Part shown: positions 18,139-21,566 of the stretch, piece after piece
Position numbering within the stretch: the stretch's first letter is position 1
Layout: each line of letters starts with the position of its first letter
DNA from: Chroococcidiopsidaceae cyanobacterium CP_BM_ER_R8_30
Lineage (GTDB): Bacteria; Cyanobacteriota; Cyanobacteriia; Cyanobacteriales; Chroococcidiopsidaceae
Reading direction: 5' to 3'
Length of the DNA stretch: 42,052 nucleotides
NCBI GenBank assembly: GCA_019244235.1
Contig: JAFASY010000260.1
Location: 1-42,052, forward strand
The notes under the pieces: model-generated
Seen by the model: the letters and a program-made list of their open reading frames with translations, nothing else
Told to the model about the DNA's origin: nothing
Database searches by the model: none
Position numbers and translations under genes: made by a program

Positions 18139-19041
18139 TTAGTTGATCCTCATTGCGATCCTTAGCTTGGCAGAGCGGGAGCGAGGATTTTGCTCTAGTT
18201 CATCTGCTTGCGGTGTTATTGGCTTTTTGGTTATCACTTGTAATATCGGTGAGGAGCGAAGTGCGTGCTTCACCAGTCGATCTTCAAGACTATGAAAACT
18301 GATAATCCCAATTCTACCACCAGGGGTTAAAGTGCTGGGCATCCGTGCCAGGAAGGTTTCTAGGGAGGTTAACTCATCGTTAACCACAATCCGTAGGGCT
18401 TGAAAGACACGAGTGGCAGGGTGAATTCTACCATAGCGGTACTGAGAGGGGACACAACGAGCGATCACATCGGCTAATTCTGTCGTTGTCTGGAATGGAC
18501 GTTGCTCGACTATACGTCTTGCAATTCTCCGCGACAGTCTTTCCTCCCCATACTTGAAGAAGATATCTGCTAATTGTGCTTCATCCCAATGGTTTATCAC
18601 CTCAGCAGCTGTTAGCGATTGCCGCTGATCCATTCGCATGTCCAATTTAGCTGAATGGCGAAAACTGAAACCTCGTTCAGGTGTATCCAGTTGGGCAGAA
18701 TTGACACCTAAATCAGCGACTACGCCATCAAAAACCCTGTCTGGCTTATAGAGCGCAAAATTTTCTCTCACAAACTGGATGCGATCACCATAAACTGCTA
18801 ATTGCTTTCTAGCAACCATAATTGCCTGTTCGTCCCGGTCAATTGCCGTTACCCGTACATCTGGTGCCGCTGCTAAGATGAGGCGGCTGTGACCACCGCC
18901 CCCCACTGTTGCATCTAAATAATGCCCACCAGGACGAACTGCTAACCCCTCAACTAACTCCCGGCTTAACACTGGCACATGCGCAAACGTTAGCCCTTCC
19001 GTCTGGTTGGGGATCGAAGTATTAGTATCTTTAACTTTCAT
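18139..19041 (-). CDS. rsmH: 16S rRNA (cytosine-1402-N4)-methyltransferase RsmH (MraW)
   Basis: 300 aa. Methylates N4 of C1402 in the decoding centre of 16S rRNA using S-adenosylmethionine. Recognisable pieces: the N-terminal [13 protein letters not shown], the SAM motif [12 protein letters not shown], the conserved [20 protein letters not shown], a helical insertion ([20 protein letters not shown]), [18 protein letters not shown], and the C-terminal [19 protein letters not shown]. Length and motif order are normal. In many bacteria the gene heads the division/cell-wall cluster; here it stands alone, divergent from ndhH by 112 nt. Confidence 0.96.
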
Positions 19042-19153: not shown

Positions 19154-20338
19154 ATGGCAAGAATCGAAACCAGAACGGAGCCCATGGTCCTCAATATGGG
19201 TCCCCACCACCCTTCCATGCATGGGGTCATGCGGCTCATTGTTACCTTAGATGGCGAAGATGTCATAGATTGCGAGCCAGTGATCGGATACTTGCACCGT
19301 GGCATGGAAAAAATCGCCGAAAATCGTACCAATATTATGTTTGTCCCTTATGTTAGTCGCTGGGACTATGCAGAGGGGATGTTTAATGAAGCTGTCACCG
19401 TCAATGCCCCAGAAAAACTAGCTGACATTCCAGTCCCCAAACGTGCCAGTTATATCCGGGTCATCATGTTGGAATTGAACCGGATTGCCAATCATCTGTT
19501 ATGGCTAGGACCGTTTATGGCTGACGTTGGCGCTCAGACCCCCTTTTTCTACATCTTCCGCGAACGCGAGATGATTTATGATTTGTGGGAAGCTGCCTCG
19601 GGCTATCGCATGGTCAATAATAACTACTTCCGAATCGGGGGAGTAGCAGTAGATTTGCCCTATGGTTGGGTAGACAAATGTTCTGATTTTTGTGATTATT
19701 TCTTACCTAAGGTCGACGAGTACGAGCGCCTGATTACAAACAATCCCATCTTCCGACGACGGGTTGAAGGCGTTGGCACCATCAGCCGTGAGGAAGCCAT
19801 CAACTGGGGGCTCTCTGGTCCCATGTTACGTGCCTCTGGGGTGAAGTGGGATCTCAGGAAGGTAGACCATTACGAGTGCTATGACGACTTCGACTGGGAA
19901 GTACACTGGGAAACTGCTGGAGATTGCTTTGCTCGATATATAGTGCGAATTCGGGAGATGCGCGAATCTGTCAAGATCATCCGCCAAGCAATCGAGGGAC
20001 TTCCTGGTGGTCCTTATGAGAACCTAGAAGCCAAGCGTCTGGCAGCAGGTCCGAAATCTGAGTGGAGTGGGTTTGACTACCAGTACATTAGCAAGAAGGT
20101 TGCTCCTACCTTTAAAATTCCTAAAGGTGAACACTACGTTAGAGTTGAAAGCGGCAAAGGTGAACTGGGCATTTATCTGATCGGAGATGATAACGTTTTT
20201 CCCTGGCGCTGGAAGATTCGTGCAGCCGACTTTAACAACGTCCAGGTCTTACCTCAGTTGTTACGGGGCGTGAAAGTTGCCGATATTGTAACTATCTTGG
20301 GTAGTATTGACATTATCATGGGGTCGGTTGATCGCTAG
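19154..20338 (+). CDS. ndhH: NAD(P)H-quinone oxidoreductase subunit H (NdhH)
   Basis: 394 aa peripheral-arm subunit of the thylakoid NDH-1 complex (49-kDa/NuoD homologue), lining the quinone-binding site, used in respiration, cyclic electron flow and CO2 uptake. The N-terminal [42 protein letters not shown] and the C-terminal [14 protein letters not shown], with [14 protein letters not shown] at the end, match the family closely and length is standard. Its last 32 nt overlap the following methyltransferase gene, so the two are probably translationally coupled. Arg27 (HGVMR) corresponds to NDUFS2 Arg85, the residue that the mitochondrial homologue of that methyltransferase modifies. Confidence 0.97.
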
Positions 20339-21566
20339 TCACTCTCTTGCAGATGATTCTAATCCGGCACTATGTGGGGTGCTAGCTTGTCGTATTGCCG
20401 AGAGCCCTAATCAGCGCCTCACCTTTGCCGAGTATATGGATCTGGTACTGTATGAGCCTGAACACGGCTACTACGCTACCAGGGCTATCGATATTGGACC
20501 ACAAGGGGACTTTTTTACCTCCCCTCACCTTGGGGCAGACTTCGGTGAACTGTTGGCAGAGCAATTTCTCCAGATGTGGGAGATTCTAGACCAACCGACG
20601 CCCTTTACATTATTAGAACTAGGAGCTGGTCAAGGGCTTCTAGCAGCTGACATTCTGAGATATTTATACCGCCACCACTCAGATTTCTACGCAGCACTAG
20701 ACTACATGATTGTGGAACGGTCAGATGCTTTAAGGCATGAGCAGCAGCGGCTGTGGAGGAGAGAGCAGGGGGAGCAGGGGAGGCTGGGGAAGCTGGGGGA
20801 GAAAGAGAAAATCAAATGGGCAACGTTGGAGGAGATCCCGGTTGGCTCGATTGTTGGTTGCTGTTTTTCTAATGAGCTGGTGGACGCGCTGCCAGTCCAT
20901 CAGATTATTATCGACCAGGGAAAGCTGCGAGAAGTTTATGTCACGACGGGTTTGGTTGAGGTTATCGACAAACTCTCTACCCAATGGCTGGCAGAGTACT
21001 TTGATTTAGTTGGAATAGAGCTGCCCTCTAGGGCGTACCCTTCTGGCTACCGTAGCGAAGTTAACTTGGCAGCATTGGACTGGCTGAAAGCAGTTGGAGA
21101 GCGGCTACAGCGCGGGTATCTGCTAACTATTGATTATGGCTATCCGTCTGCTCGTTACTACAGCCCTGCTAGGCTACGCGGAACACTACAGTGCTACTAC
21201 CGCCATCAACATCATGACAACCCCTATATAAATATTGGGCGGCAAGATATTACCGCTCATGTAGACTTCACTGCCCTGGAGCTATGGGGTGAGCTGTGTG
21301 GGTTGCATAAGATCGGTTTTACACAGCAAGGGCTATTTCTGATGGCATTAGGACTGGGTGAACGCCTTGCCGCACTCTCTACTGGTGATGCAGTAAGTTC
21401 AAAACAAGGTCTCTCGTTCTTGCTGCGACAGCGTGAAGCGCTGCATCAGTTAATGAATCCTATGGGGCTGGGCGGCTTTGGTGTCCTAGTTCAGTGCCGA
21501 GGACTGACAGAGGCAGAGATAGCATACCCCCTTAAAGGTTTGAGTTTTCCAGGTAGCGGTAGGTAG
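20307..21566 (+). CDS. MidA/NDUFAF7-family SAM-dependent methyltransferase (DUF185)
   Basis: 419 aa if it starts at TTG 20307, inside ndhH; other in-frame candidates are TTG 20325 and GTG 20379, and no ATG precedes the domain. The family pattern is clear: [40 protein letters not shown], the SAM-binding [42 protein letters not shown] and [13 protein letters not shown]. In mitochondria NDUFAF7 symmetrically dimethylates Arg85 of NDUFS2, the NdhH homologue, and is needed for complex I assembly (established knowledge). The overlap with ndhH suggests the same enzyme-substrate relation here (inference). Residues ~150-168 ([15 protein letters not shown]) come from the G-rich repeat and sit between conserved blocks. 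Confidence 0.9.
20755..20810 (+). repeat. G-rich repeat inside the MidA-family gene
   Basis: AGGAGAGAGCAGGGGGAGCA and following GGGGAGG/CTGGGGA units, the same family as at 2998, 30539, 30744 (inverted) and 34863. It is read in frame as a Gly/Glu/Leu/Lys insert, presumably in a surface loop. Confidence 0.75.

Follow-up and report, generated by a model that had tools for sequence, protein, structure and literature searches.

When the gene for a methyltransferase directly adjoins ndhH, does its product act on the protein that ndhH encodes, and if so on which residue? The pair lies in a 42,052-nt stretch of cyanobacterial DNA, which was analysed as a whole and is called the window here (handles beginning with G, L or f are our own, for genomes, loci and families). 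The first-pass annotation had proposed the two products as an enzyme and its substrate, with Arg27 of NdhH as the target. We now consider it very likely that the encoded MidA/NDUFAF7-family enzyme methylates (by analogy, symmetrically dimethylates) NdhH at a different arginine, Arg49 of the HRGxE motif beside cluster N2, probably during NDH-1 assembly, helping to hold NdhH in place and tuning N2. What we observe are the gene identities, the fold, a recurrent adjacency of the two genes, their co-occurrence, and a tie between the presence of MidA and the glycine that follows Arg49. The features on which the argument draws are:

18139..19041, minus strand: rsmH (mraW), divergent neighbour of ndhH, from profile matches
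19154..20338, plus strand: ndhH, NAD(P)H-quinone oxidoreductase subunit H (49 kDa / NuoD homologue), the proposed substrate (PF00346, 348.5 bits; NF005649)
19232..19234, plus strand: codon for Arg27, in HPSMHGVMR, the residue proposed earlier and not the homologue of bovine Arg-85 (alignment and PMC3750175)
19298..19300, plus strand: codon for Arg49, in the HRGxE motif (GYLHRGMEK), the proposed methylation site and equivalent of bovine Arg-85 (alignment and PMC3750175)
19301..19303, plus strand: codon for Gly50, the residue after the proposed target (genome comparison)
20307..21566, plus strand: MidA/NDUFAF7-family (PF02636, COG1565) SAM-dependent methyltransferase, opening at a TTG, with a further TTG at 20328 as the other possible start
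20616..20636, plus strand: ELGAGQG, residues 104-110 of the methyltransferase, which we take to be SAM-binding motif I (conservation in 17 sequences)
20751..20804, plus strand: low-complexity insert, methyltransferase residues about 149-166, in a loop that is predicted poorly (alignment and model)
20871..20894, plus strand: NELVDALP motif, residues 189-196 of the methyltransferase (conservation in 17 sequences)

The identities of the two genes are clear. The ndhH product is full length (394 aa) and scores 855.7 bits against the NdhH equivalog profile NF005649, while the downstream frame matches PF02636 (Methyltransf_28) over the entire profile, positions 1-249 of 249, at 239.7 bits against a curated cut-off of 23.3; a whole-genome profile search found it to be the sole PF02636 match in its own genome. 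An rsmH-like divergent gene, judged by eye, also stands upstream of ndhH in loci L051, L055, L056 and L060. Another contig of the same genome holds a NuoD-like fragment interrupted by an in-frame TAG (G000:C53:21763-22074, profile positions 174-277), apparently a decayed second ndhH-like copy. Counted from the first TTG, the two genes share 32 nt on the same strand (20307-20338), the overlap given in the first-pass annotation, and the gene pair itself is real; the start is unproven, and the second in-frame TTG at 20328 would cut the overlap to 11 nt. In three near relatives the candidate start is an ATG that shares 1 nt with the ndhH stop; at the other loci read, candidate midA starts come later, 13 nt to about 1 kb past that stop. 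Given the alternative TTG codons and the differing starts in relatives, the exact overlap is neither established nor general.

The methyltransferase belongs to the MidA/NDUFAF7 family by its full-length domain, its fold and its motifs. An AlphaFold model built on a 17-sequence alignment (mean pLDDT 84.4) matched solved COG1565/DUF185/MidA structures at Z 34.7-40.3 over 342-365 aligned residues, with TM scores by query of 0.69-0.75, and the next row fell to Z 15.4; Dictyostelium MidA (5ztz) was matched at Z 35.6. Invariant in all 17 sequences are E104, G106, G108 and G110 of a GxGxG motif and N189, E190, D193, A194 and P196 of an NE..DA.P motif, and alignments place a NELVDALP-like stretch in 4f3n, 1zkd and Dictyostelium MidA as well. 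The best matches by both sequence and fold are to the Burkholderia COG1565 protein (4f3n/4g67) rather than to NDUFAF7 itself. As a separate observation, relative L009 carries about four tandem KGGKTIPPTPLE-like units in the MidA loop that holds the insert at 20751-20804 in the window, as if short repeats were invading this loop and being tolerated there.

Which arginine such an enzyme would modify can be read from complexes in which the mark is known. In bovine complex I the modified Arg-85 lies within tryptic peptide 75-89, KCDPHIGLLHRGTEK, and Thermus has Thr in place of its equivalent (PMC3750175); in our alignment this Thr faces Arg49 of the window, while an Arg of Thermus faces Arg27. From the placement of KCDPHIGLLHRGTEK and the Thr opposite Arg49 it follows that Arg49, which is followed by glycine in HRGxE (GYLHRGMEK, Arg49-Gly50), is the equivalent site. 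The homologous arginine is symmetrically dimethylated in bovine, human, Pichia and Paracoccus (Arg-65) proteins and is unmodified in E. coli (PMC3750175), whose NuoCD retains HRG; in Yarrowia cluster N2 depends on the equivalent residue, at a distance of 3.7 A (PMC8042128). Arg49 is kept in 39 of 39 MidA-less Cyanobacteriia with a full NdhH, and the three chloroplast NdhH chains aligned keep HRGMEK.

Our first-pass annotation had placed NDUFS2 Arg85 in HPxxHGVxR. That motif is indeed intact in NdhH (HPSMHGVMR) and its last Arg is residue 27, but the assignment of Arg85 to it was mistaken, and methylation of Arg27 is scarcely tenable. Arg27 is present and conserved in the 55 MidA-bearing loci (some genomes being counted twice among them, so that the genome-level count is that of the 289-genome sample below) and in the 39 MidA-less genomes read; the known site, however, lies in HRGxE (PMC3750175; PMC8042128), Thermus lacks the Arg only at the Arg49 position and has one at that of Arg27, and it is Gly50, the neighbour of Arg49, that is strictly conserved yet changes in lineages lacking MidA. 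Arg27 was therefore rejected as the target, and the enzyme-substrate proposal survives in its pairing of MidA with NdhH, through adjacency, co-occurrence and the Gly50 tie, with Arg49 as the homologous residue.

Adjacency is not confined to this strain. In the survey of neighbours that the first-pass annotation had suggested, ndhH stands directly upstream of midA in the genome of the window and in 10 of 11 MidA-bearing relatives of the same family; adding one genome each from two other families gives 13 of 19 MidA-bearing genomes (1.5 kb flank read). Among 80 named cyanobacterial loci, some from the same genomes as those under G handles, ndhH lies within 6 kb of midA in 25, always upstream and on the same strand (25/25), and 10 of the other 55 hold less than 1.5 kb of upstream sequence and are hence uninformative. 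The same order appears in five f22 genomes and in G291, in regions picked for close coordinates. In family f44, genus code g95, the order is inverted, with midA directly upstream of ndhH in all four genomes (by sequence in three, by coordinates in G388), and in two f30 genomes, outside Cyanobacteriia, midA immediately precedes nuoA and other nuo genes, all on one strand (Pfam identifies chains A, C, D, F and G in each of the two, and in addition B and H in G056 and E in G037). Three same-strand arrangements thus recur: ndhH-midA in several families, midA-ndhH in f44, and midA heading nuo genes in f30. In genome G172 an Oxidored_q6 (NdhK-type) gene separates ndhH from midA, which is on the opposite strand. 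Adjacency is nonetheless absent in most Cyanobacteriia: of the 62 MidA-bearing ones in the phylum sample, 10 have the two genes within about 2 kb of each other.

Co-occurrence reaches further than adjacency. A strong PF02636 match was found in 68 of 146 genomes of the phylum (62 Cyanobacteriia and six outside the class; four others gave weak partial matches only), and all 68 also have a NuoD match, G002 by fragments only. Full-length NuoD matches (E < 1e-100) were obtained in 82 genomes of this sample and not in 64, and the only MidA-bearing genome among the 64 is G002, in which NdhH is split over contig ends; 15 genomes have full NuoD without strong MidA. We also noted G066, a single contig of 3.8 Mb in which NdhA is present and neither NdhH nor MidA is matched. 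It was rejected as independent evidence, because ndhH and midA are often neighbours in its family and both could vanish with a single missing or masked stretch.

These patterns bear on whether the main substrate of the enzyme lies elsewhere, in another protein, RNA or DNA, its nearness to ndhH being incidental, which we regard as improbable. Neighbours of midA do differ in three loci outside the phylum: on a Sinorhizobium replicon (L282) it is flanked by lgt and pgeF, on a Comamonas plasmid (L281) it adjoins genes for an SDR oxidoreductase and dihydroneopterin aldolase, and in a Paenibacillus its neighbours are unrelated genes, and a Wolbachia MidA is reported, in a result its authors call preliminary, to methylate DNA (PMC12455994). 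Such a substrate would leave unexplained the three same-strand arrangements with ndhH or nuo genes, the position of midA beside the HRG copy in f44, the presence of a NuoD match in every genome of the 146-genome phylum sample that has a strong MidA match, and the replacement of Gly50 in lineages that lack MidA. (In the plasmid collection, two Neisseria gonorrhoeae records, NZ_CP119142.1 and NZ_CP119140.1, are about 2.17 Mb long, a size that suggests chromosomes filed as plasmids.)

The tie with Gly50 was read in 289 Cyanobacteriia genomes of completeness 95 or more, 249 with PF02636 and 40 without. The pattern YLHRGMEK is matched in 250 of the 289, and 244 of these are among the 249 with MidA; with two HRGVEK sequences, HRG is found in 246 of 246 readable MidA-bearing genomes, the unread ones being G214 and G274 (no NdhH match) and G296 (a fragment). 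HRG presence was taken from a per-genome table in which the reversed-pattern control gave 0 in every row, and a match is genome-wide, not tied to ndhH in each genome. Full NdhH is available for 39 of the 40 MidA-less genomes (the remaining one is G066): 31 have HRS, two HRA and six HRG, so that Ser or Ala follows the target Arg in 33 of 39. All serine codons at position 50 are TCN, which differ from GGN at two positions and from GCN, the alanine codons also seen, at one. Outside Cyanobacteriia the six MidA-bearing genomes have HRG in 8 of 8 copies, and nine of the 10 MidA-less genomes read also retain it, a count that omits G030 (a distant match) and four weak-PF02636 genomes (best copies three HRG, one HRN); second NdhH copies in G023, G034 and G048 are HRN. 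Every MidA-bearing genome read therefore has an HRG NdhH, yet, because MidA-less genomes outside the class retain it as well, HRG does not need MidA.

NdhH columns were compared across 44 MidA-bearing rows and 24 of the 39 MidA-less ones (second copies, G315 and G367 left out). Of 152 columns invariant in the MidA-bearing rows, 11 vary in the MidA-less rows, and just two are altered in a majority of those rows, Gly50 (kept in 17%) and Pro120 (kept in 33%); ranked by plain frequency difference over all columns, Gly50 comes 15th, behind 14 that differ more. Pro120 (window numbering) is Thr in 16 of the 24 MidA-less rows.

The Fisher p value for MidA against Gly50 (1.9e-37) ignores ancestry. On an NdhH tree of 65 of 93 rows (15 outside-class and 13 near-duplicate or second-copy rows left out, columns 40-70 excluded) MidA changes five times, and well-supported branches yield four independent pairs, in two of which Gly50 changes the same way and in two of which it does not differ; second copies of f44 were counted in this test as belonging to an HRG genome. 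Two MidA-less genomes with HRG, G315 and G367, are nested among MidA-bearing relatives and are probable assembly gaps, though they are kept in the 39; without them two independent pairs remain, nearly always the same way (2 of 2). Since independent events are few (about 2-4), the pair counts cannot reach significance, and an AU test on the NdhH tree did not reject a single clade of HRS/HRA lineages (p 0.405).

Shared ancestry could account for the tie, if a few deep lineages with divergent NdhH happened to lose MidA with no causal link to Gly50. Families f23 and f48 hold 35 of the 40 MidA-less genomes, many other columns differ alongside Gly50, the 14 that exceed it included, few pairs are independent, one clade is not rejected, and six MidA-less Cyanobacteriia keep HRG. 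We nonetheless hold this account to be rather unlikely, as Gly50 leads the only two columns that are invariant in the 44 rows with MidA and changed in most of the 24 without, and as f44 presents the same split within one family and even between paralogues within one genome. Taken together, the genome comparison is strong circumstantial evidence for the pairing of MidA with NdhH, not proof.

The f44 paralogues deserve separate description. Four f44/g95 genomes have two NdhH proteins, one HRG and the other HRS (three genomes) or HRA (one), and the only PF02636 match of each stands next to its HRG copy, with the HRS copy of G170 about 7.5 kb distant. Another f44 draft, G389, has MidA and one NdhH (HRG), and G201 has no MidA and one NdhH (HRS), an absence of MidA and of a second copy that could be a gap, since this draft assembly comprises 200 contigs and is 95% complete. 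Over nine genomes of the order to which f44 belongs, an HRG NdhH is found in all seven with MidA, and G390 has neither match. Elsewhere there are second copies that keep HRG: L276 (G116), L275 (G083), L258 (G161), L254 (G182), L295 (G209) and L294 (G387). That MidA-bearing f44/g95 genomes also carry an HRS or HRA copy counts against methylation of Arg49 as we propose it. We tentatively suggest, as a possibility rather than an expectation, that cyanobacteria may have two kinds of NDH-1, one with an HRG NdhH methylated by MidA near N2 and one with an HRS or HRA NdhH without the mark, some lineages having the second kind only and f44/g95 keeping both. If this is true, one f44/g95 cell could make two forms of the complex that differ in their N2 or in their assembly.

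Methylation of Arg49 would proceed along the following lines. MidA would act on Arg49 before the N2 region is assembled or as it assembles, with Gly50 forming part of the site that it recognises; once MidA is lost, or an NdhH copy escapes it, Gly50 would be free to change. The mark itself may help to keep NdhH in contact with the N2-bearing subunit, and it may tune N2. In this scheme we infer the catalytic activity, the symmetric dimethylation, the timing and the effect of the enzyme. The product might instead be monomethylarginine or asymmetric dimethylarginine at the same Arg49; product type is unreadable from sequence, but the site of the human enzyme carries symmetric dimethylarginine (PMC3829151; PMC3750175), and we think these other products very improbable.

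The enzyme family and the mark are already known, and alphaproteobacterial homologues of NDUFAF7 have been inferred to make the complex I mark (PMC9006661). What appears to be new, not seen in our searches, is the pairing with ndhH and nuo genes, the Gly50 tie, the two-copy genomes and the mark predicted for cyanobacterial NDH-1: a literature search that missed most subscription journals found no earlier report of the first three or of NdhH methylation in cyanobacteria, in agreement with the first-pass annotation on the latter point, and a word search of the review PMC9283085 did not find 'methyl'. If our proposal is correct, a complex I modification known from mitochondria and one alphaproteobacterium would also belong to the photosynthetic complex I of easily engineered organisms. 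The role of the mark for N2 and assembly was left to future work in PMC8042128, and the MidA-less lineages and two-NdhH genomes are natural tests of that role. The HRGMEK of chloroplast NdhH raises the question of whether the plastid protein is methylated too.

Several known systems can be set beside this one. The complexes I of E. coli and Thermus contain homologues of NdhH (NuoCD/Nqo4), with the Arg unmodified in E. coli and replaced by Thr in Thermus thermophilus (PMC3750175); among 14 control genomes, profile searches found PF02636 in three (Caulobacter, Synechococcus elongatus and Haloferax) and not in those of E. coli and Thermus composti. Dimethylation of Nqo4 Arg-65 in Paracoccus denitrificans concerns a bacterial complex I and the same arginine as NdhH Arg49 (PMC3750175), but that organism is alphaproteobacterial, not cyanobacterial, and the midA neighbours differ in the one alphaproteobacterial locus read. 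The Burkholderia COG1565 protein (4f3n/4g67) is the closest solved structure by sequence and fold, and its PDB titles, an uncharacterized protein or likely methyl transferase, give no substrate. Dictyostelium MidA is 22-26% identical to the window enzyme by structural alignment. With the NDUFAF7/MidA system of human and Dictyostelium, acting on NDUFS2 Arg-85, the cyanobacterial pair shares the PF02636 family and fold, and the substrate homologue NdhH keeps HRG; it differs in that the enzyme would serve NDH-1, with an activity that is predicted, and in that its gene adjoins that of the presumed substrate.
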